NCBI GenBank assembly: GCA_001709035.1
Contig: LVKA01000023.1
Location: forward strand, 186,001-250,000
Source of the DNA: Candidatus Thiodiazotropha endoloripes
GTDB taxonomy: Bacteria; Pseudomonadota; Gammaproteobacteria; Chromatiales; Chromatiaceae
Length of the DNA stretch: 64,000 bases
Reading direction: 5' to 3'
Shown piece by piece: positions 39,689 to 59,718 of the stretch. Position numbers and translations under genes: made by a program. The notes below the pieces were generated by a model. The model made no database searches. It saw only the letters and a program-made list of their open reading frames with translations, and was not told where the DNA came from. Position 1 is the first letter of the stretch. Each line of letters opens with the position of its first letter.

Positions 39689-42600
39689 ATGATAAATGAA
39701 AGTCAGGGTTACATGAACAGAGGGCTACAGTTATTTGTATTTCTGTGTCTCTCATTTCTGGTTACTGCGCTGAATGCAGCCTCATTGACCATCAATGTGG
39801 TTGATCAGTCAGGCAACCCAATCACTGATCCGAATTTCGGTTTTCGTTGGTTGCTGGAGAGGGATAACACCTTCCCGGTCGATCCGGCGAATCCTGGAAC
39901 AACAGCTGATGAATTACTGTCGTTGAGCTTTCACGCCAGTAATCACGAAGTCGGCGTTGCTACTGATGGATCTGGTTCACTGTCGGGCAATGTAGATGCA
40001 TCTACAGCTACGATCGGTGATGTAATCCCTGCTGGACGTTACTACGTATCAGTGCACCCCTACAGCGGTTACAGCCTGAGTGGCGATTCTGTTGATCTGA
40101 GAAACGTAGCAGCCGGTGAGGTTACTGTCACAGTACAGCAGCATCCGATCCCCACTGCACAGATCTCGATCTATCTGTTTGAAGACAAGCATCCGGTGAA
40201 TGGTGTTCCGGATCTGCCGGAAGAGCAGAATGACGGCACGGTTGACTGGACTCAGTTCAGTCTGTTCCTGGAAGAGCCGGGTGGTCGTTACGGTGCAGCC
40301 GGTGGTCAGGTTATCCAGGATGCTTTCGGTAACTACCTCGGCACCACCTATGACCAGACCTGTGCCACCAGTAACCCAGTTGGCGCTGGCGGTGATACCC
40401 CGGGTGGCATGATCAACGCCACCTGTATCGATGCGGACGGCAATCCGGTTATCGATGTGCTGGGTGACGGCACCATGCAGCCCGATGAGAACGGCTACCT
40501 GAATGTTAAGAATCTCGCCCCCGGCAAGTATGGTGTGGTCATCATTCCACCACCCAATGCCGGTTGGCAGCAGACCAGCACCATCGAAGGTAGTAAGGTC
40601 ATCGATGCCTGGGTCAAGGCCAACGAGCCAGCAGTTTTCGTGGAATTCGGTATCCCCGGTCCCCATGTTTTCATGGGTTTTGTACGTCCCTTCGCCGATC
40701 TGCCACCAGCCCAGCAGGGTGAGCAGGTTGCGACCGTCAGCGGTGTTGTTACCGACATGCACATGTCCCGTAACCCGGCTACCAATTTCTTCACCGGTCG
40801 TCCTTTCCCACAATGCTGGATAGCCATTAACCAGGTCGGTGTTGCCGGTGCCCTGGGTCAGGCCGTCTATGCGGGTGCTTGCGGAGCGGACAGTGACTTC
40901 TCAGTGGATCTGGTTCCCCCGGGTGAGTATCAGCTGGCCATTTGGGATGCCAACCTTGATGTGGTTTTTGCCTCCCTGTTGTTTACCGTGGATCCAACCA
41001 ATGGTACCTGTAACGGTGGGCTCTCCTGTAACTTCGGTGATGTGCCGGTATTCAACTGGTTCACTCGTCTTAATACCGGCATCTTCAGAGATGATGACCA
41101 GGACGGTTTCTGGGACGACGGTGAGATCGGAATCGGTCCTGAAAGTCAGGAGACCGTACTGCGCTGGCGTGACGGCACCATCTATCAGGCCTTCCCGACG
41201 GATGGTGACGGTTTAGCGCCTTTTGATGAAGTTTTCCCATTCTTTCACTGGTTGGTCGCTGAAGTCAGCTTTGGTAATAAGAAAGCGACAGGTGCCACTT
41301 TTGTCGTGGATGCAGGTGGTGAAGTTCGTCCGGATGGCGGATGGGCCGATCCTACCTTTGGTGAACTAAATCCTCAGGGGCAGTGTGAAGCTCGAGGTGT
41401 AGGCCACAGTGATATCGTTATCTCTGCTACCGATCCTCGTGGTGTTATCGGCGATTGTCTTGGCTCTGATGACGCTGGTGTTACCTGGGTTGTTGAAAAC
41501 GGCCGACAGATCATCAATCCGAATACTGGTAACAATCTGTCACGCACCGAGACCGGCCTGGTACTCACTCAGGGCTTCCAGGGCTTCCTGGGTCAGACCA
41601 GTGTGATGCAGTTCGGTAAAGTCGACTATGTGATCGACACCCCGTTTGACTTCAGCGCTTTCCCTCCAAGAATCTCCGAGTATGTGGGTGAAAACGGCGG
41701 TATCTCCGGTATCGTCTACTACGCTACCACTCGTGCGGAAGATGAGCCTCAGTTTGCTGCGGCCGAGGAGTGGGAGCCTGGTGTGCCTCGGGTACAACTG
41801 GCTCTCTATGCGGATGGTGATGTCAACTGTCCGCCACTGAACAACTTCCCGGGTGATCCATGCGACATCGACTGGAACGGTAATGGTATACAGGATCCAG
41901 ACGATGGCGTGATCGAGGATATCAATGGTGTACCCGGCATTCAGCGTGCTGACGTAAACAACCATCCTCTGGATGTCTTCCCCGGACCTGAAGATGTTGA
42001 TAACGGTACACCTGGTGTATTCGACATGGGTGATGCGCTTCAGGTCACACATACCGACAGCTGGGATGACAATCTGCCTGCCGGTTGTCAGGGCACCAAT
42101 AATCCGCCAGGTGCGGAGGTCGATCCTGCCATTGATGATCAGCGCTGTTTCGATGGTCTGCGTAACTTCAACCAGGTTCGTGATGCACTGTTTGATGGTG
42201 GGTATGCTTTCGAAGACTATGACCTGGACCATCTGGCATCGATTCCAGCTGCTACCGGCTATAACGCAGCGGTCGTAGCGACCAAGCTCAGCGCTTTCTA
42301 CACGGGTCTGAGAACCGGCTGGCCTGAGTTGAATCTTCCGGAAGCCTGGCTCATCCCTGGTGACTATCTGGTTGAATCAGCTACACCTGCCGGCTACAAG
42401 CTGGTCAGAGAGCACCACAAGAATGTGGATTACGGTGATGAGTACATACCATCACTGCAGGCCTTCCCTGCGACCTGTGTGGGTGAGGAAGTGATGGTTC
42501 CTGAATATCTGGCCATGGCTACCAAAGATGGCAGTGGTGATGCAGCTCAGCTGATTCCAGGTGTTGAAGCCATTGGAGCGCCTTTCGCCGGCGAAATGAG

Positions 42601-45600
42601 ACCGCTCTGTGATCTCAAGCATGTACCGCTCTCAGCCGGTCAGAATGCGGCAGCCGAGTTCTTCCTGATGACCGATGTGCCTAAAGCAGGCAACATCTCG
42701 GGTGTGATCCTCAACGACCTGGCCAACGAGTTCAATCCGAACTCACCCCAGTTCGGTGAGAAGTTCGCGCCACCTCAAGTTCCAGTTGCTTTCTACGATT
42801 GGAACGGCAATGAGATCAATCGGGTCTATGCGGACAACTTTGGTCGCTACAACCTGATGGTTGCTTCAACCACTACCGCGAATCTGCCCATGCCTTCTGG
42901 TATGTCGCCGAACATGCTGGTCTCCTGTATGAACGATGCGGGTCCGATTCCGAATCCGGATTTCACCGGTGCCGCCGGCGACGGTATTGATGGCAGTGGT
43001 AATCCTGAGTTCATTATCGATCCACATTTCGATACTCAGTACAGCCAGTTCTGTTACACCTTCCAGTATATGCCGGGTACCATCACCTATCTGGATACCC
43101 CGGTTGAGCCGGTGGCCGCCTTTGCCGGTCCGGATCAGTTCCCACTGGATTGTGAAGCACCAACACAGACTCCAGCGATCTCCTCCGTGCTGCGTGAGGT
43201 GGTTCCCGCCAGCGGCATCGAAGGTCCTTTTGTGGTTGCCGGTACTGGTGAGAACATCGTCATCAACGCCAAGGGCCTGACCGCTGTTCGTAACCCGGAA
43301 TGGGCCGATGGAGATCCTTTGGCTGAACAGAACATTGATCGGGATTACGGTTTTGGTAGCGTTGCCGGTTCGGTTCTTGTTCAGGATCGGAATGGTAATC
43401 CAGTAACTACCCTGGTTGCCTCAACCTGGAGTGACAATGCCATTATCGCCTCTACTGCTGGTTTGGCAGCCGGTGAATACCAACTGCTGGTAGAGCACAA
43501 CAACGGTAGTGTCTCTCCCACGGGTATCACACTGACTGTTGGTATCGCTGAAGGTGTGGGTCTTGGTAATAACAACTCCACCTATAACGTTGTCAACGTG
43601 CCAAGCGCCACCTATCCGACTATCCAGGATGCGATCGGTAGTCTCGATAACGGCCTTGGTGGCGTCAACGCCGGTGACCTGATCATTGTCAAACCTGGTC
43701 TCTACAATGAGATGGTGATCATGTGGAAGCCGGTCAAGCTGCAGGGCTTTGGTGCCGAGACTACAATCCTCAATGCCCGACAGACGCCGACCGAAAAGAT
43801 CATCGCCTGGCGTGAACTGGCGGCCGAGCTGGTTGGTACAGGCACCATTGATCAACTGCCGGGACAACTGGTACCCGTACCCTTCTTCGGTGGGGTTCAG
43901 GGTGCACTCGGCGCCCCGATCTTCCCAACGGAAGAGGGTGCAGGCATCATGGTTGCGGGTAAGTGGACCGGTCCTAACCGATTCCATCGTAACAACCGTA
44001 ATCGCTATGCCCGTATCGATGGTCTGAGCATTATCGGCGCGAGTACCGGTGGCGGTATTGTTGCCAACGGCTACACCCGCTTCCTGGTCATTTCCAACAA
44101 CCGTCTTACCACTAACTCCGGTTTCTATGGTGGCGGTATCCGCATCGGTCACTCCACTCTGACCCATGAAGTTATTGGTGAGGATGACGAGTTCTTCAGA
44201 CGCGGCTATAACAGCTGGCTTGAAGATCAGGCTGAAGACGGTTTCATGGCCTACGATGACGCCTTTGCCGACAACATGAATATCCATCATAACGAGATCA
44301 TCAAGAATGGTGGATTGAATGGCGCCGGCGGTGGTATCTCAATCCACACTGGTGCTAACAACTATCGTGTTCGTAGCAACTTGATCTGCGGTAACTTCTC
44401 CAAAGGTGATGGCGCCGGTATCGGCCACATGGGACTCTCCCGCGGTGGTCAGATCCTGGATAACACCATTATCTTCAATGAGAGCTTCAGTCAGACACCT
44501 GGCACCAAGCCTGCCGGTGGCGGTATCTTCGTCGGCGGCCTGGCCGGACTGCGTGTCGATGAAGAGACTGGTCTTACCCTGTCTCCCGGTTCCGGTAACG
44601 TCAACATTCTCGGTAACCAGATTCGGGGCAACCTGGCCGGTGCCGGTGATGGCGGTGGTATTGCCATGCTGAGTGTCAACGGTGAGGATATCACACGCGA
44701 TCCTGATGTCTTCGGTCGCTGGTATCGGGTGATCGTTGCCAACAACATCCTGAGCAACAATGTCTCAGGTCTTGCGGGCGCCATCTCCCTGTCAGACAGT
44801 GTCAAGACCTACATCCGTTACAACACGATTGCGAACAACGACTCTACCGCAACCGGTTCACAGGCTTTTGGTATCACTGATCCCAATCAGTCTATCGCCA
44901 AACCGGCTGGTGTCGTTGCCCGCTACCACAGTGCAACCATGATGTCTCTCATCGATGATGATGTGGCGGAAGAGTTCCCCGGTTCACAGTTCGATGAAGA
45001 CGATGTACGGAATCGTAGCGAAGAACGGATGACTTTCTCTGATCCGATCCAGCTGCTGGATAACATCCTTTACCACAACCGCTCGTTCTACTGGCGGAAT
45101 ACGGATGATCCAGCGACTGTTGTTCTGGAGAATGGTCTGGTACCGGCAAGCTGTGATAACACCACCAACACCAACTGCGATATCACAGTTGTCAACGTGG
45201 AGGATTACACTCAGGATCTGGCGGTGTTGAGCGGACACACCATCGACCCGGTACATCCACAGTATGGTCCGATGTTGCTGCGCCCACTGCGTAACGTCTT
45301 GCAGACCGGTGCATCTGCAGTAGCCAACAACACTTATATTGATGGCTACTCAACAGCAAACAATGACCCGCACAACTCGCTTGGTCCAGTGTTTGTCAAT
45401 GGCCGCTTCAATGAAGACCGTAATGCACTGCTCTTCCCAGAGTTCAAAGTGCTGCAGGTAGCGGGTGCTTTCGATGAAGGCGGTAACTTCCTTCAGGTCA
45501 ACTTCGGTCCGCTCTCTCTGCTTGATATCGACGGTAATACCGCGACTGCGGATGGCCTTATCGATTATCACCTCGAGGCTGGTTTAAATCCTGCTGTCGA

Positions 45601-45706
45601 TGCAGCTGCCGCCTCTGCCGGTACTGGCATCTACTCGACCGATATCGATGGTGATGCAAGACCGCAAGGCGCCCGTACGGACGCCGGTGCCGATGAGAGG
45701 TTGTAA
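39689..45706 (+). CDS. Giant secreted protein: SdrB/carboxypeptidase-regulatory-like domains plus right-handed beta-helix
   Basis: This 2005-residue protein starts at ATG 39689, with GGAG eight bases upstream; ATG 39713 is an alternative. A signal peptide ends near residue 30 (LNAAS). Residues 30-1290 are a chain of beta-sandwich modules. Several have a calcium-binding look (FRDDDQDGFWDDGE near 465, DWNGNGIQDPDDG near 730) and SdrB-like openings (ISGIVYYA, ISGVILND). From about 1300 (YPTIQDAIGSLD) to 1800 runs a right-handed parallel beta-helix with repeated asparagine ladders (NILSNNVSG, NTIANND). The C-terminus TDIDGDARPQGARTDAGADERL is a common ending of such helices. It is probably a surface or extracellular scaffold. 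No enzyme motif was recognised. It opens the copper-protein cluster. Confidence 0.85.
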   Translation: MINESQGYMNRGLQLFVFLCLSFLVTALNAASLTINVVDQSGNPITDPNFGFRWLLERDNTFPVDPANPGTTADELLSLSFHASNHEVGVATDGSGSLSGNVDASTATIGDVIPAGRYYVSVHPYSGYSLSGDSVDLRNVAAGEVTVTVQQHPIPTAQISIYLFEDKHPVNGVPDLPEEQNDGTVDWTQFSLFLEEPGGRYGAAGGQVIQDAFGNYLGTTYDQTCATSNPVGAGGDTPGGMINATCIDADGNPVIDVLGDGTMQPDENGYLNVKNLAPGKYGVVIIPPPNAGWQQTSTIEGSKVIDAWVKANEPAVFVEFGIPGPHVFMGFVRPFADLPPAQQGEQVATVSGVVTDMHMSRNPATNFFTGRPFPQCWIAINQVGVAGALGQAVYAGACGADSDFSVDLVPPGEYQLAIWDANLDVVFASLLFTVDPTNGTCNGGLSCNFGDVPVFNWFTRLNTGIFRDDDQDGFWDDGEIGIGPESQETVLRWRDGTIYQAFPTDGDGLAPFDEVFPFFHWLVAEVSFGNKKATGATFVVDAGGEVRPDGGWADPTFGELNPQGQCEARGVGHSDIVISATDPRGVIGDCLGSDDAGVTWVVENGRQIINPNTGNNLSRTETGLVLTQGFQGFLGQTSVMQFGKVDYVIDTPFDFSAFPPRISEYVGENGGISGIVYYATTRAEDEPQFAAAEEWEPGVPRVQLALYADGDVNCPPLNNFPGDPCDIDWNGNGIQDPDDGVIEDINGVPGIQRADVNNHPLDVFPGPEDVDNGTPGVFDMGDALQVTHTDSWDDNLPAGCQGTNNPPGAEVDPAIDDQRCFDGLRNFNQVRDALFDGGYAFEDYDLDHLASIPAATGYNAAVVATKLSAFYTGLRTGWPELNLPEAWLIPGDYLVESATPAGYKLVREHHKNVDYGDEYIPSLQAFPATCVGEEVMVPEYLAMATKDGSGDAAQLIPGVEAIGAPFAGEMRPLCDLKHVPLSAGQNAAAEFFLMTDVPKAGNISGVILNDLANEFNPNSPQFGEKFAPPQVPVAFYDWNGNEINRVYADNFGRYNLMVASTTTANLPMPSGMSPNMLVSCMNDAGPIPNPDFTGAAGDGIDGSGNPEFIIDPHFDTQYSQFCYTFQYMPGTITYLDTPVEPVAAFAGPDQFPLDCEAPTQTPAISSVLREVVPASGIEGPFVVAGTGENIVINAKGLTAVRNPEWADGDPLAEQNIDRDYGFGSVAGSVLVQDRNGNPVTTLVASTWSDNAIIASTAGLAAGEYQLLVEHNNGSVSPTGITLTVGIAEGVGLGNNNSTYNVVNVPSATYPTIQDAIGSLDNGLGGVNAGDLIIVKPGLYNEMVIMWKPVKLQGFGAETTILNARQTPTEKIIAWRELAAELVGTGTIDQLPGQLVPVPFFGGVQGALGAPIFPTEEGAGIMVAGKWTGPNRFHRNNRNRYARIDGLSIIGASTGGGIVANGYTRFLVISNNRLTTNSGFYGGGIRIGHSTLTHEVIGEDDEFFRRGYNSWLEDQAEDGFMAYDDAFADNMNIHHNEIIKNGGLNGAGGGISIHTGANNYRVRSNLICGNFSKGDGAGIGHMGLSRGGQILDNTIIFNESFSQTPGTKPAGGGIFVGGLAGLRVDEETGLTLSPGSGNVNILGNQIRGNLAGAGDGGGIAMLSVNGEDITRDPDVFGRWYRVIVANNILSNNVSGLAGAISLSDSVKTYIRYNTIANNDSTATGSQAFGITDPNQSIAKPAGVVARYHSATMMSLIDDDVAEEFPGSQFDEDDVRNRSEERMTFSDPIQLLDNILYHNRSFYWRNTDDPATVVLENGLVPASCDNTTNTNCDITVVNVEDYTQDLAVLSGHTIDPVHPQYGPMLLRPLRNVLQTGASAVANNTYIDGYSTANNDPHNSLGPVFVNGRFNEDRNALLFPEFKVLQVAGAFDEGGNFLQVNFGPLSLLDIDGNTATADGLIDYHLEAGLNPAVDAAAASAGTGIYSTDIDGDARPQGARTDAGADERL

Positions 45707-45849
45707 TCATGAAAATGATCAACACACATGCAACTGAAAAGCGCCAGCCTGTCACCATGGACAACGTCCTGGTGGCAGGGTGGAACAAACTTCGCAAACA
45801 CACATCAGGTGAGTCAGGCGCTTACAAAATAACGAGGAGTAAACGCCCC

Positions 45850-47193
45850 ATGAAACTATTTAGTAAGCAAGCCCTTGCCGGAGCAATAGCCCTGGCACTG
45901 CTGGGCATCTCGGGTCAGGCTAGCGCCATTGTCAATGTACAGTGTCCTGGTGATAACAACGGTGATGCAGACTGGAATGATGCTGGTGAAACTCAGCCAG
46001 CGAATACCAAGTGTATGCATCTGATCGCTGGTGACAGCTATGCCAAGATGTCTGATGGCAATCCGCTCTACACCTTCGGCTTTGGTGATCAGACTGGTAC
46101 CGCGCCTGATCAAGTTATCGGAGAGGGTATCCTCAGCGCTGAGTGGCCCGGACCTACCATTGAACTGGATGAGGGAGATCACTTCTTCCTCAACCTGACC
46201 AATGTGGGTACGGTGGTCCGTCCCGATCTGTTCGATCCCCATACTGTCCACTTTCATGGCTTCCCGAATGCCTCGGCGGCCTTCGACGGTGTACCTGAGG
46301 TGTCGGTCAGTATCAATATGGGATCGACCCTGACTTATTACTACAACATCGTTGAGCCTGGCACCTATCTCTACCACTGCCACGTGGAAGCCACCGAGCA
46401 TATGGAGATGGGCATGTTGGCCAATCTTTATGTTCATCCAATTCAGGATGAACTGGGTTGTTTCGATTTCGGGCCAGACAACGCTGGTACCACGGAATAC
46501 GATCCTGAAAGAGTGCCAAATGGCAATTGTGCAGCAGCGGTTGGCGATGCGGGTTATGTCTACAATGACGGTGACGGCACCACAGCTTTTGATGTAGAGA
46601 CAGCGATCCAGCTTTCAAGCTTCGATCAGGTGTTCCATGATGCCAGTCTGTTTGTACAGCCACTGCCATTTGCCCTGTTGGAAGGCAACTATCCCCAATT
46701 CAATGGTCGGGGTTACCCTGACACCGTCAACCCAGATCCACTGCCTGCTCCAGTTGATGCTACGGACCCAGTCGCGGATCCTGCAGGATTGAATGGCGGC
46801 AAGGTAACCGGGACTGTCGGTGAGCCTTTGACCGATGGCGCGATCACGCAGTTTCTGGGTTCCTCGATCCAACTTGACCGAAACACGGGTGAACAGCGTC
46901 TGCTGTTACGCCTCTCCAATGTGGGGCTGGATCGCTTCTGGACGATTACCGCCATGGGGCTGACCATGAAGGTGGTCGGCACCGGTGCCCGTCATATGCG
47001 TGGCATAGATGGCAAGAACATCTATAAAGAGGCTGCATCCCACAACTTTGGTGGTGGTGAGACCCTCGACATCATTATTGATACCACAGATGTCGCCCCG
47101 GGTACCTACTTCCTGCATGCCACCGAAGTGCATCAGATGAGTAATGCAACCCAGTTGGATGGCGGCATGATCACTGAGATTGTCATCAACTGA
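45850..47193 (+). CDS. Multicopper oxidase-like protein carrying the type 1 copper site (half-site A)
   Basis: I start at ATG 45850 (GAGGAG ten bases upstream), giving 447 residues with signal peptide MKLFSKQALAGAIALALLGI. The first cupredoxin domain (about 85-200) has HTVHFHG (H131, H134, H136), equal to the HxxHxHG motif, and YHCHVEATEHMEMGM (H176, C177, H178, H184, M189), a type 1 copper motif with two extra residues against HCHxxxHxxxGM. The second cupredoxin domain (about 340-447) has only FLHATEVHQM and no cysteine. So it has one complete type 1 site and two of the four His-x-His pairs needed for a trinuclear centre. The next gene supplies the other two. Substrate unknown. Confidence 0.85.
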   Translation: MKLFSKQALAGAIALALLGISGQASAIVNVQCPGDNNGDADWNDAGETQPANTKCMHLIAGDSYAKMSDGNPLYTFGFGDQTGTAPDQVIGEGILSAEWPGPTIELDEGDHFFLNLTNVGTVVRPDLFDPHTVHFHGFPNASAAFDGVPEVSVSINMGSTLTYYYNIVEPGTYLYHCHVEATEHMEMGMLANLYVHPIQDELGCFDFGPDNAGTTEYDPERVPNGNCAAAVGDAGYVYNDGDGTTAFDVETAIQLSSFDQVFHDASLFVQPLPFALLEGNYPQFNGRGYPDTVNPDPLPAPVDATDPVADPAGLNGGKVTGTVGEPLTDGAITQFLGSSIQLDRNTGEQRLLLRLSNVGLDRFWTITAMGLTMKVVGTGARHMRGIDGKNIYKEAASHNFGGGETLDIIIDTTDVAPGTYFLHATEVHQMSNATQLDGGMITEIVIN

Positions 47194-47220
47194 GCCTGGC
47201 CGAACTAGGAGATGAGATTA

Positions 47221-48651
47221 ATGAAACAACTACTCAAACAACCTGGACGGCTCTTGGGCCTCCTGTTTTTGGGCATGAGCAGTGCGCTGACTGTGCAGCA
47301 GGCACAGGCGGAGCACGATATCCGAGGCATCTCACAGGGTGCCAACGGTGTGTTCAACCTCTATGCCTATCCATTCAACATGAACCTGCCCGAGGGCACC
47401 AGTCTCTACATGTGGGGCTTTGGTGATCTGGATCTGGGTGAAGGCGCCTCTCATGATGCGGGTGCCAACTACCAGTTGCCTCAGTATCCGGCGCCGACAC
47501 TGATCGTCACCGAGGGTGAGGCGGTCACCATCAACCTGGTGAACTACGGTGTGCCAGACAATATCTCCATTGAGATGACCGGTCATGAAGTCAGCTCTCA
47601 ATGTATCGATATTCCTGCACCAGGTGGTCCGACACCGACAACCGGAGCGACTAACTGTACGGTCGGGCTGTTTACCAACGAAGCCGATGTGGGACAGGCT
47701 GTCAGTTACACCTTCACCGCAGGTTCTCCCGGCACCTATATCTACCACAGTCTGGCCGGTGCAAATCCCGGACTGCATACCGAAATGGGTCTGGTGGGTG
47801 TGATGGTTGTCAGACCGGCTGATTACGATCCAATCACAAATCGGACCGCTTACGGTGCCGGTACCGGAACTGATTACGATCATGAGAATCTCTACCTGAT
47901 GACCGAAGTGGATCCGGATATTCATATCCAGATGGAGAAGGGACACGTCAACCACTTCACCAATACCGATCGCTACGCCAAGGTCTGGTTCATTAACGGC
48001 CGGGTCTTTCCGGATCTGTTCCAGGGTGACTACAACACCCTGTTTCCGAACCAGCCCTATGAGTCCCTGGTTATGTCAAGACCCGGTGATGTGGTCCTGG
48101 TACGTAACGTCAATGCAGGGCAGGATGCTCATCCCATGCACTACCATGGCGAGAACCTGCGTTTCATCGGTCGTGACGGCAAGATGCTGAGTTCCGATGG
48201 TGTTCTGGCCGATCTGGGTCGTTCTGACAACACCATCAATTCGCAGCCAAAGCAGACGGTTGACGCCCTCTGGACCTGGACAGGTAAGGACCTGGGCTGG
48301 GACATCTACGGTCACGATACCGGACACAACTGTATCGATGTCAACCCACGTGATGGGTATGCAGATGCCAACTCCGACTACCCTGGTGAGTGGTGTAACG
48401 ACCACAACAAACCGATACCAGTCTCACTGCCTGGTGTGGGCGATCTCACCCTGGGTGGCTGGTGGAGTGGCAGCCCCTTCCTGGGCGATACCGGTGACCT
48501 GCCTCCTGGTGAGGGCGGTCTGAATCCCTTTGGCGGCTACTTCCTGGTATGGCACTCCCATGCTGAAAAAGAGCTGACTACCTTTGACATCTTCCCTGGC
48601 GGAAGCCTGGGATCGGTAGTTGTGCTGCCTCCTGGTACACCAATCCAATAA
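47221..48651 (+). CDS. Multicopper oxidase-like protein lacking type 1 cysteine (half-site B)
   Basis: ATG 47221 (AGGAG nine bases upstream) gives 476 residues with a signal peptide ending near QQAQAEHD; the ATG at 47212 overlaps the ribosome site. The first cupredoxin domain (to about 200) is degenerate: YHSLAGANPGLHTEMGL keeps one His and the MG but no HxH. The C-terminal domain has AHPMHYHG (H304, H307, H309) and VWHSHAEKELTTF (H445, H447), where serine replaces the type 1 cysteine. It therefore carries two His-x-His pairs and no type 1 site, complementary to the preceding protein. It starts 27 bases after that gene and is surely in the same operon. Confidence 0.85.
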   Translation: MKQLLKQPGRLLGLLFLGMSSALTVQQAQAEHDIRGISQGANGVFNLYAYPFNMNLPEGTSLYMWGFGDLDLGEGASHDAGANYQLPQYPAPTLIVTEGEAVTINLVNYGVPDNISIEMTGHEVSSQCIDIPAPGGPTPTTGATNCTVGLFTNEADVGQAVSYTFTAGSPGTYIYHSLAGANPGLHTEMGLVGVMVVRPADYDPITNRTAYGAGTGTDYDHENLYLMTEVDPDIHIQMEKGHVNHFTNTDRYAKVWFINGRVFPDLFQGDYNTLFPNQPYESLVMSRPGDVVLVRNVNAGQDAHPMHYHGENLRFIGRDGKMLSSDGVLADLGRSDNTINSQPKQTVDALWTWTGKDLGWDIYGHDTGHNCIDVNPRDGYADANSDYPGEWCNDHNKPIPVSLPGVGDLTLGGWWSGSPFLGDTGDLPPGEGGLNPFGGYFLVWHSHAEKELTTFDIFPGGSLGSVVVLPPGTPIQ

Positions 48652-48667
48652 TCGGGAGGGCACAATC

Positions 48668-51600: not shown

Positions 51601-51898
51601 GACCATCCCAACCACGGGTACTGCACAGGGCGTACGGGTCTACCTGGTACGGGTCGATATCAACGGGACACCATCCCCACGGGTTGAAATCGTACCCACA
51701 GCGACTGGCAATAATAATGGTCGTATCCGGTCTGTCGGCGGACAACATGTCTGGGGTATCAATGTCAACGGTGTTGGCAACAACAGACCGGAAGTTGAAT
51801 TGCCAGATGGCAATGACTATCTGGAAATCGAGGTGGTTGATTTAGCCACCTACCCAGAGGCTGTCTACAACAACGTACCATTTGATATCGAGCCATAG
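48668..51898 (+). CDS. Copper-site-less multicopper-oxidase-like domain fused to cadherin/Ig-like repeats
   Basis: ATG 48668 with GGGAGGG seven bases upstream gives 1076 residues and a signal peptide (to about 29, GAGQANA). Residues 30-385 align in pattern with the two proteins before it (TTMWGYALDD, SGTLMYHTGTWPQKQLYMGLAGVI, HPGWYMINGQSY) but have no HxH or HCH motif. From 393 come cadherin/Ig-like repeats: NQPPIANADPITIQ, ETINVLANDLDPDND, NDAPVAVNDIFYV and GVLLNDTDLENDG. A separate C-terminal domain follows (about 945-1076, RASYLQRGNPGTGNDRWRLRG). It probably has a structural role within the oxidase complex, for example adhesion or display. Confidence 0.8.
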   Translation: MKRSTTMKQTLKPIVVACALALGAGQANALDVYLIAKSFTQDLPLSGGGTQPTTMWGYALDDIGSPGACYNAGNPADAACTGATATAPGPRITIDPADPVLNIYLTNLLDEPTSIVIPGQQLPLMGPTWDDGTTGGRTNLTQKVRSYGVEAAANGGTQVYSWAGTNAIANSGTLMYHTGTWPQKQLYMGLAGVITKDADVGNVLYDHDGIPASGDEVTYANELILFYHDVDTDFNANVVAGTLDTAIHRHPGWYMINGQSYQTSFPDILYGEDGVTPLTTAGPTLLRFVSAASEKHVPVLQGLYGTIHAEDGIPYTYEDGTGIHTAPRQQYSVGLPPLKTKDVIVQPTFGGTYAVYDGNGNMTNPSDPGDFFQGDEIGGMIRKLGFNLGVGGNQPPIANADPITIQIPEVVSADTSYQVIETINVLANDLDPDNDALILGANTIVGDVFSIPGLIMSLDCLGGGTSCDLTVDSALPPTVLGGETAQYTYEITTAVNTTPVAGNIDLTVEVNAAPVLAAAPQIVVTTDDLVADVATINLADLVADATDATTGDTVSVSDTPPVAIAAAPATTATLTCNYGAGTCSIDFTGIAAPHQLNLDFTMTDGLNVVEGQSATVSLAFPGATLFDDATTLDQVGALDLDANDVNLPATYGLALASAPTAGGTATVEDDGTFTYTPPAGTFTGDSFTYCLTAAPLDDTCLATPPAATVTIDPAPASGLIAVGGKTYTTDEDAVLDVLAANGLLIGESPINGGTLAVVVDDAPTCANTAAGSFTYDGTTGEFHYEPLLDWNSVNAPTGLCTLADGPDTITYHLEETYNDGGNFVTISSNTVTAEITVNPVNDAPVAVNDIFYVQDASTAVLDGQGEPVSMTFSVAAAGVLLNDTDLENDGLLATEVNDPGNLDPALGIDGSMPSFAIDPTAVGILTSVEYEASDLMAQSNIATADIVRQVSVTRASYLQRGNPGTGNDRWRLRGVVDTTIPTTGTAQGVRVYLVRVDINGTPSPRVEIVPTATGNNNGRIRSVGGQHVWGINVNGVGNNRPEVELPDGNDYLEIEVVDLATYPEAVYNNVPFDIEP

Positions 51899-51919
51899 TT
51901 AGTATCATGGCGTGAGGCA

Positions 51920-51950: not shown

Positions 51951-51992
51951 GTTAAGATCAATCGTCAAACGACACAATTCCTGGGTAGTACC

Positions 51993-52586
51993 ATGAAAAG
52001 TTCACACTTTTCCGAAAAAGCGCCTGAGGATGATAAGGAGAGGCATCCTAGAGGCAATCCTCTGCTGGTGATTCTGGTCCTGGTGATCTGCACCACGGCC
52101 TTTCTTGCATTCACCGCATCGGTCGCCAAGGCAGATAGTAAAGCTGCAGCGCAGAGCGTAGAGCAAGCGGCCTCCAAGCCCTGGAAACCGCCTGTTGCCA
52201 TGGCGAACGTTCCCAAACCCCCTGTGGATAAGGAAACCGCCAAGAAAATCGCCGAAAAATGGGGTGTTGAGCTACTGAGTCTGCGGCTGACCGCAGCCGG
52301 CTACATGATCGATTTCAGGTTTCGGGTGCTGGATATCGAAAAAGCCAAGATATTTTTCGACCACCGCATCAAACCGCACCTAAAGGTTGAGAAATCTAAT
52401 GCTAAACTACCTATACCCATGGCGGCCAAGGTAGGTGCGTTCAGAGCGACCAACCGGGGCAAGAACATCAAGTCCAACAAGAATTACTACATGGTGTTTG
52501 GCAATCCTGATGCCCATGTGAAATCAGGAGAAAAAGTAACAATGGTGATCGGCGACTTTAAAGCTGAAAATTTAACAGTCAACTGA
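51993..52586 (+). CDS. Membrane-anchored protein of unknown function
   Basis: I take ATG 51993 (MKSSHFSEK), since the longer in-frame reading to 51912 would overlap the terminator hairpin. The 197-residue product has a cytosolic lead, one membrane helix (about 22-43, LLVILVLVICTTAFLAFTAS), a proline/alanine linker and a periplasmic domain from about 80 (KKIAEKWGVELLSLRLTAAGYMIDFRFRVLD to AHVKSGEKVTMVIGDFKAENLTV). This domain looks like an Ig-like sandwich. No family recognised. Its place between the oxidases and the Calx-beta protein suggests a part in assembly. Confidence 0.7.
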   Translation: MKSSHFSEKAPEDDKERHPRGNPLLVILVLVICTTAFLAFTASVAKADSKAAAQSVEQAASKPWKPPVAMANVPKPPVDKETAKKIAEKWGVELLSLRLTAAGYMIDFRFRVLDIEKAKIFFDHRIKPHLKVEKSNAKLPIPMAAKVGAFRATNRGKNIKSNKNYYMVFGNPDAHVKSGEKVTMVIGDFKAENLTVN

Positions 52587-52608
52587 TCGGTTGACTCGAG
52601 AAGGAAAT

Positions 52609-55600
52609 ATGCAATATAGAAATCATCTGCTTGGTTTTCTAACACTACTCGGACTGGTCTCTTCATTTGAATCCCACGCGCTGGTGACCGTCTATTGTTG
52701 CGATGCAACAGCCGAGGCTCAGTTCATCCAGGATCTTTCGAATCTTCCATCCATCTCGCCAGACATCACCAAAGAGAGCTTTGAGGGCAGCGCCTGGGAC
52801 GGCACCCGCAGTACCGGTGTTCAGAGTGTCACTTCCCAAGGCATCACCTGGGCGGGGAGCTCCACGGAATCCTCCTTTGTGCGTACCTCCACCAGTGGTG
52901 GCGATGTGCATGAGGGCAGCTATCTGATGTTCCCGGTAGACAACAGAAATGACCATCTGGTACCGGATAAATACACACTGACCGCCAGTGGCACCACGCT
53001 GTATGGTGTGGGCGGTTGGTTCCGCAGTAGCACCGGGGCCAAGATCGGTTTTACCACCAACGGATCGGCTCCGGTCGATTTTACCGGTTCACAGGCCACA
53101 GTCTCGGGCTGGACCTTTCTCGGATTCATCGACGATGCCGGTTTCACCAATGTACTGGTAGAGGCTGTGGATGAGGGGGGAGATGAGGTCAATATCTTCT
53201 TCTCGGATGACTTTACACTGGGTGCCCAGTCAGGCGCATTCCCAGGGCAGAAACTGCAGTTCAGCAGTGCCTCCTACAGTGTGGCTGAGAATGCCGCTAC
53301 GCTTCAGGTCACCGTAGAGCGTACCGGTGGCACCAGTGGTGCGCTCTCCGTTGACTATGCAAGTGATACTGATAGTGAGACTGACACCGCCAGCGCCAAC
53401 CTTGATTACACACCGGTTTCCGGAACCCTCAATTTTGCGGATGGTGAGAGCAGTCAGCAGATCAGCATCGATATTCTGGATGACACCATCTTCGAGGATA
53501 ACGAGATCTTTACGATCAATCTGAGCGGTCTCAACATCGGTGCACAGAACAGCGCCACGGTGACCATCACGGATAACGATGCACCGACGGTTGGAGCGGT
53601 GCAGTTCAGCAGCAGCACCTATACCTTCAGTGAAGGTGACGGCAGCGTTACCATTACCGTCCAGCGGGATGGGGGCAGTTCCGGCAGTGGTTCGGTGGAT
53701 TATGCCATGAGTGACGCAACAGCAACGGCAGGCAGTGATTACACAGCGGCCTCCGGCACACTCTCATTTGTCGATGGGCAGATCAGCAGTAGCGTGACCC
53801 TCGACATCACAGACGATGCCACCGCGGAGGGTACTGAGTCGCTGCTGGTCAGCCTCTCGAATCCGGTCTCGGTCTCTCTGGCTGCCCGGGATGTGGCGGA
53901 AGTCTCGATTACCGACAATGAGCCGGTCTCGAGCTCCGGCAGTCTGCAATTCAGTGGTTCCAGCTACACCGCTTCTGAGGGTGATGTTTCGATCCTGGTG
54001 CCTGTGACCCGTACCAACGGCAGCAGTGGGGCGGTCTCGATAACCTGTTCAACCAGTGATCTTACCGCCACTGCAGGAGCTGACTATACAGCGACCCAGG
54101 CCACGGTTAATTTTGCAGATGGTGAACTCACCAGTAATTGTGTGATACCTGTTCTGGATGACAGCAGTTACGAGGCGGATGAAACCCTGATGGTCACTCT
54201 TACAACGCCCACTGGTGGCGCTGTACTTGGCACACCGGCATCCGCCGTTGTGACCTTGAGCAGTGATGACCCAATACCCGCCATGGGCAGCCTGCAGTTC
54301 AGTCTCTCTGAATATTCATTGAATGAGGATGGAGGCACAGCCACGATCGCCGTCTCCCGCTCAGGCGGCAGCAGCGGTTCTGTTGGGGTCAGCTACGCGA
54401 GCAGTGATTCAACGGCAACCGCCGGTGAGGATTACACGGCCGCTTCCGGCAGCGTGAGTTTTGCCGATGGTGTAACCAGTGGATCCTTCCAGGTGACACT
54501 GCTCGATGACAGTGAATACGAGGGTGATGAGCGTATTACGCTGACCTTGAGCAACCCAACCGGTGGTGCCGTATTGGGCCCGACCGCCCAGGTTGATTTG
54601 GTGATCACTGAAGATGATGCGGCACCGGCAACCGGCTTGCTGGTCTTCAGTGCCAGCGACCTTGGTGCGGATGAGGCTGATGGTCTGATTGAGGTAACGG
54701 TCGAGCGTCAGGGTGGCAGTAGCGGTGCTGCACAGGTCAACTATGCAACCGCAGATGGCACGGCAATTGCCGGCATCGACTATCAGGTTGCCAGTGGTAC
54801 CCTGACGTTTGCGGATGGTGAACTGTCGAAGACATTCGAAATCACCATCATCGATGATGCCTTATTTGAAGGTACCGAAACCATCAACCTGATACTCTCC
54901 GATGCGGTTGGTGCGTCACTGGGTGATACCTCTACGGCAACTTTAAGCGTAACTGATGATGACGTGCCGCCTGCTGCCGGTTCTCTGATCTTTTCCAATT
55001 CGGCCATTACCGCAGCAGAGGATGGTGGCGACGTTACCGTCACCGTTTCACGCAGTGGCGGTTCGACCGGTGCTGTTTCGGTCGATTACAACACCGCTGA
55101 TGGCAGTGCGATTGCCTCCTCTGACTATACCTACACCTCCGGCAGCATCAGTTTTGCCGATGGGGATGCAGCCGATAAGACCTTTACCGTACCACTGCTG
55201 AACGATTCGGCAGTGGAGTCAGATGAGACCATATTGCTACAGATGAGTAACTTTCAGGGTGGGGCGGTAGCCGGTGATCAGAGCAGTGGTCAGATTACCA
55301 TCACCGATGATGATGTACTCAACGCATCCACTGTGATCGGTTTTACCATCACCAGCCTTACTGTGAATGAATCTTCAGTCAACGCGAGCTTTACCATTGA
55401 TCGCAGCGTTGTCCTGACCGGCACCGTCAGTGTCGACCTGAGCGTTGGTACATCGACCGCCATTGCCGGTAGCGATTTCAATGTCACCACAGGCACTCTG
55501 CAGTTTGCCAGTGGCGAGACGCAAAAGACAATCAATGTGGAGATCATTGACAATACGGTTGTTGATGGGGATCGCACGATCACCTTTGTGCTGGGTAATG

Positions 55601-55833
55601 CCTCCGGTACCGCAACCATCGATAGCAACAGTGGCAGCTTCACCCTGACCATCTCCGATGATGACCAGGATGGTGGCAGTGATGGGGATGACAATGGCGG
55701 TGGCGGCGGAGGTGGCGGTTCTGTGGATCTGTTGCTTCTGTTGGGCCTGATGATCATTTTCTTCGGATACCTGCAGCTGCAGTCTGCCCGTCAGACTCGG
55801 GCCTATGCAAAACGTCGTGTTGAAGAGCAGTAA
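52609..55833 (+). CDS. Calx-beta repeat surface protein with GlyGly-CTERM-like C-terminal tail
   Basis: ATG 52609 (AAGGAAAT before it) gives 1074 residues with a signal peptide to about 24. An N-terminal domain of about 200 residues (ESFEGSAWDGTRSTG) precedes seven Calx-beta repeats of about 110 residues. Each has the form FSxxxYxxxE.....VTVxRxGGSSG...DYTxxSGTLxFADGE...DD. The repeats start near residues 212, 330, 445, 562, 680, 795 and 905. The end has a glycine run, a hydrophobic helix VDLLLLLGLMIIFFGYL and a basic tail ARQTRAYAKRR, as in GlyGly-CTERM proteins processed by rhombosortase. Calx-beta domains usually bind calcium. It probably anchors the complex at the cell surface. Confidence 0.85.
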   Translation: MQYRNHLLGFLTLLGLVSSFESHALVTVYCCDATAEAQFIQDLSNLPSISPDITKESFEGSAWDGTRSTGVQSVTSQGITWAGSSTESSFVRTSTSGGDVHEGSYLMFPVDNRNDHLVPDKYTLTASGTTLYGVGGWFRSSTGAKIGFTTNGSAPVDFTGSQATVSGWTFLGFIDDAGFTNVLVEAVDEGGDEVNIFFSDDFTLGAQSGAFPGQKLQFSSASYSVAENAATLQVTVERTGGTSGALSVDYASDTDSETDTASANLDYTPVSGTLNFADGESSQQISIDILDDTIFEDNEIFTINLSGLNIGAQNSATVTITDNDAPTVGAVQFSSSTYTFSEGDGSVTITVQRDGGSSGSGSVDYAMSDATATAGSDYTAASGTLSFVDGQISSSVTLDITDDATAEGTESLLVSLSNPVSVSLAARDVAEVSITDNEPVSSSGSLQFSGSSYTASEGDVSILVPVTRTNGSSGAVSITCSTSDLTATAGADYTATQATVNFADGELTSNCVIPVLDDSSYEADETLMVTLTTPTGGAVLGTPASAVVTLSSDDPIPAMGSLQFSLSEYSLNEDGGTATIAVSRSGGSSGSVGVSYASSDSTATAGEDYTAASGSVSFADGVTSGSFQVTLLDDSEYEGDERITLTLSNPTGGAVLGPTAQVDLVITEDDAAPATGLLVFSASDLGADEADGLIEVTVERQGGSSGAAQVNYATADGTAIAGIDYQVASGTLTFADGELSKTFEITIIDDALFEGTETINLILSDAVGASLGDTSTATLSVTDDDVPPAAGSLIFSNSAITAAEDGGDVTVTVSRSGGSTGAVSVDYNTADGSAIASSDYTYTSGSISFADGDAADKTFTVPLLNDSAVESDETILLQMSNFQGGAVAGDQSSGQITITDDDVLNASTVIGFTITSLTVNESSVNASFTIDRSVVLTGTVSVDLSVGTSTAIAGSDFNVTTGTLQFASGETQKTINVEIIDNTVVDGDRTITFVLGNASGTATIDSNSGSFTLTISDDDQDGGSDGDDNGGGGGGGGSVDLLLLLGLMIIFFGYLQLQSARQTRAYAKRRVEEQ

Positions 55834-55851
55834 CATATAAGGGTTTATACG

Positions 55852-56652
55852 ATGGAAAATAGAGCATGGAAAAACGGTTCGGTTGAAAAGAGTCTCAGTG
55901 GCTTGCTAAAGGCGTCTGTGCTTTCTGTTGCCCTGTTTGTCACAGCAGGAGTCAATGCCGCTGATCTGCCAAACATTGTGAAATCCAACGGTGCTGAAGC
56001 CCTTGGCCCCCAGTTCAAGCTCGATTGTGTCACCAGACCAGGCAAGCCTCAGAGTCTCGGTGATCGTTTTAAGCTGGCCATGAATAAGCACGACCATTCC
56101 CAGCATGGTGGTCATGATGAACACGCCCATCACCGTGCGATGATGGAGAACAAGTCGTACCAGGTGAGTCATGCCGGCTATCAGCTGCCGGATGTTAATC
56201 TGATCTCTCACAAAGGGGAGCAGCAGCAGCTGGCAGATATCCTGAACAATGACAAACCGGTGATGCTGAATTTCATCTTCACGACCTGTACCACCATCTG
56301 TCCGGTTCTTTCGGCCAGTTTTCATCAGGTACAGGAGATCCTCGGTGAGGATGTTGACAGTGTTTCCATGGTATCGATAACCATCGATCCGGACTATGAT
56401 ACGCCTGAACAGTTGATGAAATATTCGAAACGGTTCAAGGCTGGTGAGCAATGGAATTTTTATACCGGTAGCTACAAAGATGTGGTTACCGTAGAGAAGG
56501 CCTTTGATATCTTCCGTGGTTCAAAAATGAATCATGAACCGATTACCCTGATCAGGAATCAAGGTGGACAGCACTGGACGCGTATCAATGGTCTGGCCAG
56601 TGCAGAAGATATTGTTAAGGAGTACAAAAAGATCGTATCGGCTGCAAATTGA
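55852..56652 (+). CDS. SCO1/SenC-type copper chaperone with His-rich insert
   Basis: A 266-residue exported thioredoxin-fold protein with the SCO signature FIFTTCTTICP (C146 and C150) and the third copper ligand H228 in KMNHEPITLI. SCO proteins load copper into cupredoxin sites or reduce their cysteines. Unusually, residues 79-94 hold seven histidines (KHDHSQHGGHDEHAHH), a likely copper-binding arm. It sits 18 bases after the Calx-beta gene and no cytochrome oxidase gene is near, so it probably serves the multicopper proteins of this cluster. Confidence 0.9.
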   Translation: MENRAWKNGSVEKSLSGLLKASVLSVALFVTAGVNAADLPNIVKSNGAEALGPQFKLDCVTRPGKPQSLGDRFKLAMNKHDHSQHGGHDEHAHHRAMMENKSYQVSHAGYQLPDVNLISHKGEQQQLADILNNDKPVMLNFIFTTCTTICPVLSASFHQVQEILGEDVDSVSMVSITIDPDYDTPEQLMKYSKRFKAGEQWNFYTGSYKDVVTVEKAFDIFRGSKMNHEPITLIRNQGGQHWTRINGLASAEDIVKEYKKIVSAAN

Positions 56653-58283
56653 TGCTAAAACTCAACAAAATGATCACGGCGTTTACACTATTCGCCGGCT
56701 TGATCCTATTCTCTACTGCCTCACAAAATGAAGTGGAGGTTGACTCCAAGGCCTACGCAACAGGTAAAGCACTCTACAAAGAGGGCTTTCTGCCGAATGG
56801 CCAACTGGTAAAGGCAACCATCCAGGGCGATATCTCGGTGGAAGGGGATCAATTGATCTGTGAGACCTGTCACCGCAGGAGCGGCCTGGGATCCACCGAA
56901 GGCCAGCAGGTGGTCCCGGCAGTTGCTGGCAGTGTGCTTTTCAAGCCCCTGAAACTTCCCACCAGTAAACCCCCTGAACCACCGGTATATCGTGAAGCCT
57001 ACACCCGTGAGACCTTGATGGCAGCGGTCAGGGATGGTGTGGATGCCAATGGCCAGCCACTGGATCCATTCATGCCAAGATATCAGATCGACGATGAGGC
57101 GCTGGATGGCTTAATGGCCTATGTCAGTACACTCTCCAATACCCCGTCCCCAGGTGTGGACGATAAGACCATCCATTTCGCAACCATTGTCCTATCCTCG
57201 AACAAAGCGGAGGAGAACAAGGCACTGATCGATGTCATGGCGACCTATGTCGAGCAAAAGAATGTTGAAACCAGATATGAGACTAAACGGGCAAAGAATG
57301 CGCCATGGCACAAGGATTGGATGTTCAAGCCCTATCGTAAGTGGCAGATACATGTTTGGGAACTGACAGGTGCCGAAGAGACCTGGCCGGAACAACTCAG
57401 TGCATACTATTCAAAACAGCCGGTATTCGCGCTGGTCAACGGTTTGGTTCCAACTGGCTGGAACCGGGTCAGTGAGTTCTGTGAAGGGCATGCTATACCC
57501 TGTCTATTCCCCACCACACAACAGCCGGTTATCAGTGATGATAACTATTACACCATCTATCTGAACAAGGGTGCGGCGCATGAGTCTGAAGCGGTTGCTT
57601 CCTATATCAGGAAAAACCGTCCCGCCGCCCGAGTCGTACAGATTCATGATCAATCTGACATGCTGAGTTCCATCTCTTCCAACGCGCTCATTGATGATCT
57701 GAACAAGGCTGGAATCAGCGTAGACACGGTCTCTCTGGGGCAACTTGGCGAAAAAGAATCGAGTGCATTTCGAATTGGAAAAGACGATACAGTGGTATTG
57801 TGGCTGGATAGAGGCAAATCAGAACAGCTCTTTAACAGCGGGCAGCTTAACAGTGCAGAGTTGATCATGCTCTCCAGTCAATATTACGGAACAGACACCA
57901 AGCTCATCCCTCAGGATTTGACGGACTCTGTTCTCTTTATACACAGCGCTGAAATGCCCGATAAACTGAACAGGCTGCTGATCCGCTCAACGGGTTGGTT
58001 CAGAGCAAAAAGAATCTATAATAAAGAGACCAGAGAGATTCAAGCCAATGCCTACTTCGCGTTGAAGGTGCTTGGTGATGCGGTAAAGCACATTCGTGGT
58101 TATTTCTATCGTGACTATATGATTGAAAAGATTGAACATATGATTGATGACTTACCTTATACTTCGATCTTTCCCCGCCTCAGTATGGCGCCGGATCAAA
58201 GGTTCGCATCACGGGGCTTCTATGTGGCTAAAACTGACGGCAAAGGAGGAATTGTTAATCTCACTGGTTGGATAGCTCCCTGA
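56652..58283 (+). CDS. Cytochrome c domain fused to a type 1 periplasmic binding-protein fold
   Basis: ATG 56652 overlaps the SCO stop (TGATG). The 543-residue product has a signal peptide, one c-type heme motif CETCH (C70 to H74) in a cytochrome c domain ending near 165, and a second part from about 175 to 520 resembling periplasmic ligand-binding proteins of the LivJ type (TIHFATIVLSSNKAEE, PVFALVNGL, AARVVQIHDQSD, ELIMLSSQYYGTD). Such a fusion could receive electrons at the heme and bind a ligand, or act as a redox sensor. It is followed by the histidine kinase, 46 bases away, which supports a sensory role. Confidence 0.8.
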   Translation: MLKLNKMITAFTLFAGLILFSTASQNEVEVDSKAYATGKALYKEGFLPNGQLVKATIQGDISVEGDQLICETCHRRSGLGSTEGQQVVPAVAGSVLFKPLKLPTSKPPEPPVYREAYTRETLMAAVRDGVDANGQPLDPFMPRYQIDDEALDGLMAYVSTLSNTPSPGVDDKTIHFATIVLSSNKAEENKALIDVMATYVEQKNVETRYETKRAKNAPWHKDWMFKPYRKWQIHVWELTGAEETWPEQLSAYYSKQPVFALVNGLVPTGWNRVSEFCEGHAIPCLFPTTQQPVISDDNYYTIYLNKGAAHESEAVASYIRKNRPAARVVQIHDQSDMLSSISSNALIDDLNKAGISVDTVSLGQLGEKESSAFRIGKDDTVVLWLDRGKSEQLFNSGQLNSAELIMLSSQYYGTDTKLIPQDLTDSVLFIHSAEMPDKLNRLLIRSTGWFRAKRIYNKETREIQANAYFALKVLGDAVKHIRGYFYRDYMIEKIEHMIDDLPYTSIFPRLSMAPDQRFASRGFYVAKTDGKGGIVNLTGWIAP

Positions 58284-58329
58284 TTTCATTCCGCGTTGTG
58301 AATATTTGTAAATAAATGAGATTTGTTGG

Positions 58330-59718
58330 ATGGATAACAATATCAACTACAACGCAACTCAATACAGGGAAGATTATCAGCTGGCCAAACGATTTGGCGT
58401 GATCAGTTTTATCGCCATTATCCTGATTGCCATCGTCATCCTTTTTCTGTTTCGCTATGAAACTGCCCGCATCATCCAGGACTCCACAAAACAGAGTAAT
58501 GAGTCATTGACCATTGCTACAGAGTACACACTGAATGACCATTTTGTGATGTACCTGAATCTGATGAAGCTGAATGAAAAAAAGCCTGGCGATATGCCGT
58601 TGGAGCCGATGCTTGAACGTGCCTTGCAGAGAATGATACGGGATACCAATGTCGACCGTATCAAATTGTATGATCGGTCGGGAAAAGTCGCCTACTCATC
58701 GAGACGGGATGCTTATGATGACGATGATGAGGGTAATGACGGTTTTATCTCTGCACTGTCAGGAACTCCACGTACGGTTTTAAACTATCGGGACAGTTTC
58801 AGTATCTTCAACTCCGATGATCACGATGTGAATCTGGTACAGACCTATGTACCGATTCGTACCAATGAAAACTCTCCGGTGATGGGAGTGATGGAGGTCT
58901 ATTACGACATCAGTGACTATGTCAGTCATGCAATGAGGGCAATCATCATTGTGATGTCTGTGACGATGTTGTTGATGCTGTTTCTCTATACATTCCTGCT
59001 AATGCATATCAAACGCTCCGAACGGATCATAGAAGCGCAAAACCGCATTACCAGAGAGAAAAAAGCGATGCTTGAATTTCTCACCGCAAAAATGATCAAT
59101 GCCCAGGAGGATGAGAAGAAACGCATCGCCTTTGAGTTGCATGAAGATGTGGTACAGACCCTTTCCGGCGTCAAAATGCAACTGGAAAAATACATACTGC
59201 AGTTCGACAAACAGAAAGACGAGGCTGATGCGGAACAGCTTTCAACGGTCATCATACCTACCTTGCAGAATGCTGCGCACAAGATCCGGGCCGTTGCACT
59301 GGATTTGCGTCCGCCGAGCCTGGATGATTTCGGCCTGAAAGCAGCCCTGAATTCGTTGGTTTCCGAGTGTCATACGATTACCACAGGGTTGCAGATTTCG
59401 GTGGATATCTCAGTCAATGAGGAGTTGATATCCCAGGATCAAAAATCGATTCTTTATAGAATGTTCAAGGATACTCTCAAGGCAATCTGTTTCGATGAAA
59501 AAATCGATGGGGAAGTAACAATATCTCTGACCAATATTGATGACCTGCTACAGCTTCAAGCGAAGATATTCAGCAAACAAAATAAGCTCAATTTTAGCGG
59601 GCAGTTACCCGGTTATTTCGTTGCCATGCAGGAGAAAACCATACTCTCGGGTGGTGAGTTTTTCGTCATTGAGCTTTCTGAAGGGTTGCTGGAAGTTAAA
59701 GCGGTCTGGTCCTATTGA
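58330..59718 (+). CDS. Transmembrane histidine kinase with degenerate ATPase domain
   Basis: The 462-residue protein has two membrane helices (about 22-41 and 203-225) enclosing a periplasmic sensor domain of about 160 residues. A HisKA_3-type helix pair follows with H271 in RIAFELHEDVVQTLSG and ALDLRPPSLDDFGLKAAL near 325. The ATPase part is decayed: the N-box reads YRMFKDTLKAICF (no Asn pair) and no DxGxG or GxGL motif follows. It may be a pseudokinase or signal transducer, or need a partner kinase. No response regulator is adjacent; the nearest NarL-type regulator is at 38.5 kb. Confidence 0.8.
   Translation: MDNNINYNATQYREDYQLAKRFGVISFIAIILIAIVILFLFRYETARIIQDSTKQSNESLTIATEYTLNDHFVMYLNLMKLNEKKPGDMPLEPMLERALQRMIRDTNVDRIKLYDRSGKVAYSSRRDAYDDDDEGNDGFISALSGTPRTVLNYRDSFSIFNSDDHDVNLVQTYVPIRTNENSPVMGVMEVYYDISDYVSHAMRAIIIVMSVTMLLMLFLYTFLLMHIKRSERIIEAQNRITREKKAMLEFLTAKMINAQEDEKKRIAFELHEDVVQTLSGVKMQLEKYILQFDKQKDEADAEQLSTVIIPTLQNAAHKIRAVALDLRPPSLDDFGLKAALNSLVSECHTITTGLQISVDISVNEELISQDQKSILYRMFKDTLKAICFDEKIDGEVTISLTNIDDLLQLQAKIFSKQNKLNFSGQLPGYFVAMQEKTILSGGEFFVIELSEGLLEVKAVWSY

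Follow-up and report, generated by a model that had tools for sequence, protein, structure and literature searches.

The nine-gene cluster and its copper ligands

The 64,000-nucleotide stretch of DNA analysed here (the window) belongs to the 4.87-Mb genome of a Candidatus Thiodiazotropha, a sulfur-oxidising symbiont of lucinid clams, whose nearest named relatives are Candidatus Thiodiazotropha and related lucinid symbionts. At positions 39689-59718 lies a cluster that an earlier note, made from the letters alone, described as nine consecutive plus-strand genes for exported copper proteins; our check found all 9 open reading frames (ORFs), here called g1 to g9. The first, g1 (39689..45706), encodes an exported protein of 2005 aa with a weakly SdrD_B-like N-terminal part and a right-handed beta-helix C-terminal part, a putative scaffold. 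The next three encode two-cupredoxin proteins: g2 (45850..47193) carries the sole type 1 copper site and half of a trinuclear site, g3 (47212..48651) carries the complementary trinuclear half and lacks the type 1 cysteine, and g4 (48668..51898) has a copper-less two-cupredoxin N-terminal part followed by cadherin/Ig-like repeats, the latter above Pfam cut-offs.

For several genes, the true start codon seems to lie downstream of the listed one. The listed ORF of g2 starts at 45709, and most relatives start at its residue 48 (45850); this start is likely but not proven, because the closest relatives also keep the upstream start open. Relatives of g4 mostly start at 48668, and g5 and g6 probably start at 51993 and 52609. 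With corrected starts, the gaps from g1 to g9 are 143, 18, 16, 94, 22, 18, -1 and 46 bases, compared with listed ORFs that place g1 and g2 2 bases apart and let g3 and g4 overlap. The TGATG overlap mentioned in the earlier note is real and lies at the g7/g8 junction.

A multicopper oxidase requires one type 1 copper and a trinuclear centre, the latter with 8 histidines in four HxH motifs. In g2, the HTVHFHG motif (46240..46260, plus strand) provides a type 1 histidine and two trinuclear histidines, and the HCHVEATEHMEMGM motif (46375..46416, plus strand) provides the type 1 Cys, His and Met and another two trinuclear histidines. Both are present in 76/76 relatives, i.e., HxxHxHG and HCHx5Hx4M each occur once in every locus where g2 was found. 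In g3, HPMHYHG (48130..48150, plus strand) is accompanied by WHSH (48550..48561, plus strand), a trinuclear histidine pair in which Ser replaces the Cys, and HPxHxHG and WHSH are found in 79/79 loci; the HPxHxHG count is partly selected, because that motif was in the scan pattern, while WHSH and the g2 motifs were not. For g4, no HxxHxH is present in 77 copies, and a single HCH occurs in one. The roles assigned to individual ligands are those that we take to be usual for HCH and HxH motifs in this family, and they also rest on alignment to the Nitrosomonas europaea blue copper oxidase (3g5w).

Counted together, g2 and g3 thus contain the four HxH motifs and the type 1 Cys. No single polypeptide type holds all ligands: g2 is without one half, and g3 is without the other half and the type 1 Cys, so that a complete oxidase site is obtained only when both proteins are combined. 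We consider it likely that the trinuclear copper site is split between g2 and g3. The ligand counts reject the possibility of three independent oxidases. Of the three multicopper-oxidase-type proteins in the earlier description, g2 and g3 match Cu-oxidase above Pfam cut-offs, and g4 is placed among multicopper-oxidase relatives by a family profile; a reading as three oxidases is not supported, because g2, g3 and g4 together contain a single oxidase copper set.

The search for ligand motifs covered the aligned stretch of each ORF; loci L064, L070 and L084, whose stretches begin at or just before g3, give no g2 count. All 14 ligand columns checked are invariant in an 84-row alignment; when all His, Cys and Met columns were scanned, g2 H310 was the only other fully invariant histidine. 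The same scan detected no conserved set of His ligands in the second domain of g2, and in g4 no His or Cys column reaches 90% conservation. Alignment A4, used for the fold, comprises 83 of 120 listed rows plus the window, with six near-duplicate loci dropped beforehand; A5 (64/66 rows), A6 (49/58) and A7 (30/62) each also include the window, and A1-A3 consist of ten chosen rows.

A different view of these data is that g2 works by itself as an electron-transfer cupredoxin or an oxidase, using type 1 copper only, and that g3 and g4 are structural pseudo-enzymes whose conserved histidines serve another metal. The confinement of the type 1 motif to g2 is in keeping with this, as is the fact that g2 by itself superposes on 3g5w at 2.0 A. 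However, g3 retains exactly the second trinuclear half in 79/79 loci, with Ser in place of the type 1 Cys in its HSH pair, and the second domain of g2 has no conserved His ligand set of its own, making this explanation improbable.

Paralogy, scaffold fusions and distribution

Profile comparison relates g4 to g3 (hhalign E 2.5e-42) and g2 to g3 (E 2.4e-22). The g4 profile also matches 3g5w over 30-285 (E 5.5e-14); g4 is recognised as a multicopper-oxidase relative solely via its family profile, and as a single sequence it has no meaningful PDB relative (one chance-level row). Judged by these profiles, g2 and g3 share a two-cupredoxin ancestry with the first 400 residues of g4; together, the three amount to six cupredoxin domains, as in ceruloplasmin. 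When g2 and g3 are folded as one chain, a three-domain oxidase superposes across both parts of the predicted fold (371 residues, 2.6 A). We take 3g5w to be a two-domain multicopper oxidase with the type 1 copper in domain 1. Its type 1-bearing domain resembles domain 1 of g2 and its second domain resembles domain 2 of g3; the difference is that 3g5w has both halves in one chain, whereas here each half has a chain of its own. The Foldseek matches include ceruloplasmin and the Mnx complex, and their six cupredoxin domains are the number expected for g2, g3 and g4 combined, although ceruloplasmin and MnxG are single chains and the global TM-score is poor for the window proteins. The three subunits may have arisen by duplication and loss from a homotrimeric two-domain oxidase.

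For g1, the beta-helix proposed in the earlier note finds support in relatives and is not recognised by Pfam in the window's own copy: among 31 family members scanned (the window and 30 relatives), 10 match Beta_helix and 19 match NosD. The SdrD_B match of g1 is below the curated Pfam cut-off, and the g1 profile searched against the PDB at 0.01 yielded nothing but a stretch of a glucanotransferase. The NosD matches fall in the helix region (43526-45703 in the window, whose own copy is not among the 19). NosD is a copper-centre maturation family, and the matches may reflect merely shared beta-helix repeats or a copper-loading role. In some symbionts of tubeworms and clams, g1 is split into two to three ORFs (L048, L051, L053 and L033), by sequencing error or decay, and L053 has a partial second g3 besides its broken g1.

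Natural fusions, as read from the ORFs, tie the scaffold g1 to the oxidase subunits. It is fused with g2 in L074 (Acidobacteria) and L086 (Verrucomicrobia); L077 joins g2 to the C-terminal part of g1, and L113 (Holophagae) has g4 and g1 fused. Cupriavidus metallidurans CH34 and Paraburkholderia largidicola have a single ORF of approximately 2,700 residues for g4 and g1, and the motif types of their g2 and g3 are the same.

A scan beyond the genus confirmed 211 relatives, of which 79 loci were kept (some from the same genus). All five genes g1-g5 occur in 63 of the 79 and in the same order on one strand in 61 of these 63; several shorter loci break off within the cluster. The remaining two of the 63 are L113, due to its gene fusion, and L095, where the g5 match lies inside a long overlapping ORF. 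Lack of a conserved gene order elsewhere had been named beforehand as the outcome that would speak against a single system; instead, the order recurs, which upholds the idea of a single exported copper system that is conserved and includes a scaffold, an SCO chaperone and a sensor. Within the genus, the 21 other genomes examined contain a close g3 (16), a diverged copy (2) or none (3), the diverged cluster version being that of L036 and L037. We compared 13 of the 16 same-genus stretches: the order is kept in 13/13, as far as each reaches, and at least part of all nine genes is present in 6 of the 13, with g1, g4 or g6 sometimes as two ORFs.

The loci kept derive from Gamma-, Beta- and Alphaproteobacteria, Desulfobacteraceae, Desulfobulbaceae, Geobacter, Myxococcus, Acidobacteria, Nitrospirae, Planctomycetes and Verrucomicrobia. 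Of 369 genomes drawn evenly from the class, 11 match at 1e-30, including the window's own, and the system is therefore sporadic.

A putative shared-site oxidase and its described relatives

Computation directly yielded the gene order, the paralogy, the complementary sets of ligands, the predicted packing between subunits and the natural fusions. From these we infer, with moderate confidence, a single heteromeric, ceruloplasmin-like extracellular oxidase that is carried by a beta-helix scaffold, receives copper from SCO and is accompanied by a MofC-like cytochrome. Three paralogous two-cupredoxin subunits would form a ceruloplasmin-like ring of separate chains, mounted at the cell surface by g1, which would bind g2 and g4. 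Substrate electrons would enter via the type 1 copper of g2 and pass to a trinuclear centre at the g2-g3 interface, to which g2 would give four of the eight histidines and g3 the other four from across the interface, and finally to O2; g4 would be a copper-less structural subunit. Copper could be loaded by the SCO protein (g7), perhaps with g1, and g8 may take part in electron transfer or maturation from the periplasmic side. Expression may be controlled by g9 with a neighbouring soluble kinase and response regulator. At the cell surface, the enzyme may oxidise a metal or mineral and pass the electrons to O2.

Several observations weigh against this picture. The proximity of g2 and g3 is partly imposed, since the fold used one artificial chain, and the Foldseek comparison with ceruloplasmin combines a strong E-value with a global TM-score of approximately 0.25 and a root-mean-square deviation of approximately 18. 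No ORF in the 79 loci has both g2 and g3 matches at 120 bits, and fusions as a whole are rare (4/79 loci, plus the two plasmid records examined). A place for g4 in the complex is suggested by paralogy and by its fusions to g1. Finally, the cluster is present in groups of anaerobes (Desulfobacteraceae, Desulfobulbaceae and Geobacter), which fits poorly with an obligate O2-reducing role and makes O2 doubtful as the acceptor in these groups.

The earlier note could not match the cluster to a described system. According to the passages that deal with it, the iron oxidiser Sideroxydans lithotrophicus has three tandem genes for extracellular multicopper oxidases, a mofC-like gene and a copper chaperone (PMC5566968); this cluster, Slit_1812-1818, is reported without proven function, and its expression is higher in late magnetite than in Fe(II)-citrate cultures (PMC12016527, PMC5566968). 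Two of its proteins have oxidase motifs, and a third, larger one has adhesin- and lyase-like domains; similar clusters are named in Paraburkholderia, Ralstonia, Anaeromyxobacter and Steroidobacteraceae (PMC12016527). Compared by description, both clusters have three tandem cupredoxin genes, SCO1/SenC and a MofC-like cytochrome, along with small hypothetical genes in the Slit cluster, whereas in Thiodiazotropha g1 is separate and upstream and the Calx-beta protein g6 and g9 are added. The link is provided by Paraburkholderia, in which g2-g3-[g4+g1]-g5 occur with a MofC-like gene, and the larger third Slit protein fits the g4+g1 fusion. As far as these passages go, the window cluster is of the same kind as Slit_1812-1818 and hence not wholly undescribed. 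The system itself is real, widely conserved and partly described, and the split active site is the new, testable point: the passages on the Slit cluster do not mention a split or shared copper site, and a search of open-access literature, a narrow test, found none. No paper on a multicopper oxidase in Thiodiazotropha was found in the open-access literature.

The magnetite expression result and the habitat are the sole grounds for suggesting, tentatively, a metal or mineral as substrate. The complete proposal, i.e., a heterotrimer that forms its trinuclear centre from two non-identical chains, includes a copper-less third chain, is mounted on a beta-helix and oxidises solid-phase metal in several phyla, is rather unlikely to hold in every part. 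If it does, genes that resemble separate multicopper oxidases or hypotheticals in sulfur oxidisers, relatives of iron oxidisers, sulfate reducers and Acidobacteria would encode one enzyme with a shared active site, and the Slit_1816-1818 observation would become testable. It would offer a haem-poor route to extracellular metal oxidation, as well as a natural example of a two-domain oxidase possibly diverging into a heteromer.

The cluster could also serve as an outward electron conduit or terminal reductase, with electrons from periplasmic sulfur oxidation passing via the MofC-like cytochrome to the copper complex and on to O2 or an external mineral. Its presence in groups of anaerobes would suit such a role, and a MofC-type gene adjoins that for OmpB, a protein that Geobacter needs to reduce Fe(III) oxide, as stated in a passage of PMC5566968. 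In the OmpB and MofA clusters (Geobacter, Leptothrix), a MofC-like cytochrome/binding-protein gene, sometimes with an SCO gene, lies by an extracellular copper protein as in the window, but that protein is one large multicopper oxidase chain instead of three separate ones. Among 136 genomes of the order of genome G405, no A2 match was in a frame longer than 850 aa, in a comparison that did not include the OmpB sequence itself. Near the core of two loci, there are ORFs with 20 (L063:1-1353) and 5 (L092:13189-15309) haem motifs, leaving room for a conduit. By contrast, no porin or multihaem protein is encoded by the nine window genes, and the MofC-like gene is found in just 24 of the 51 loci of at least 20 kb (with SCO in 24/51, flanks being limited). 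On balance, we regard a conduit as unlikely.

Copper tolerance, or the oxidation of organic polymers (phenols), would make the enzyme something other than an energy-linked metal oxidase. Laccases and a CopA-type model are among its best known relatives, the SCO protein and its His-rich stretch handle copper, and an RND pump is located at the window edge. This pump, truncated at the edge, stays below every cut-off, with its highest scores coming from multidrug models and lower ones from CusA/CzcA. A scan of nine flanking proteins showed general types (ComEC, ExbB, LpxK, cytidylyltransferase, ABC transporter parts, glycosyl transferase, trypsin-like protease and the RND pump) and no clear copper-resistance protein. 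The magnetite-linked abundance of the Slit cluster, as far as described, also points away from such functions, for which we see little probability. A pco/cop copper-resistance operon is rejected, given that TIGR01480 scores 47.7 on g2 versus a cut-off of 478.95.

Accessory genes and regulators

Downstream of the putative oxidase genes, g5 (51993..52586, plus strand) encodes a small conserved protein with an N-terminal transmembrane helix followed by a beta-sandwich domain. Pfam and PDB searches found no sequence relative, and its fold matches are weak, none reaching a Foldseek E of 0.001 or lower; we therefore leave its function unnamed. The conserved His/Met copper ligands of a PCuAC chaperone are not present, as no His, Cys or Met column in A6 is conserved at 90%.

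The Calx-beta assignment of g6 (52609..55833, plus strand) is borne out by 7 stretches above Pfam cut-offs. Its end is GlyGly-CTERM-like, with a model score of 59.2 bits (E 3.7e-16) that is below the cut-off of 150. GlyGly-CTERM proteins are processed by rhombosortase, and the host genome has one (158.1 bits, cut-off 84); 14 controls match weakly, 0/14 over the cut-off. In 31 of the 62 loci with room for it, a subtilase (S8) gene follows g5 instead of a g6-type gene (e.g., L060, L062, L063, L067, L099 and L108). The subtilase is fused to Calx-beta in L049:14663-18211 and L055:14766-17744, the latter adding MopE-type metal-binding motifs, and in Paraburkholderia (L157:21209-22012) the gene after g5 is for a LolA-like protein, below the Pfam cut-off.

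The SCO1/SenC copper chaperone g7 (55852..56652, plus strand), also named in the earlier note, matches above Pfam cut-offs and has CxxxC and a His-rich stretch; in L036, the SCO domain is within a 661-aa protein. The MofC-like g8 (56652..58283, plus strand) had been called a cytochrome c/binding-protein fusion. Its monohaem cytochrome c match is just above the Pfam cut-off, and the periplasmic-binding-like domain is detected only below it (26.0 versus 31.7). A single CxxCH is present in 28/28 relatives, and matches to the PDB are weak at most.

The last gene, g9 (58330..59718, plus strand), encodes a membrane sensor. The histidine kinase claimed earlier is half confirmed, with HisKA_3 above the Pfam cut-off and no HATPase recognisable by Pfam. 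MctS/MctR was rejected as a lead for g9; the one paper found on it concerns a pyruvate symporter system, with no bearing on g9. Upstream of g1, a soluble histidine kinase (37531..38361, plus strand) has both HisKA_3 and HATPase_c by Pfam and could possibly be the catalytic partner of g9 in a split sensor kinase. It adjoins a NarL/LuxR-type response regulator (38462..39130, minus strand; Pfam) that is divergent from g1, a relative of which, at 150 bits or more, is found somewhere in 17 of the 79 loci, 11 of these 17 at 85-99% identity.

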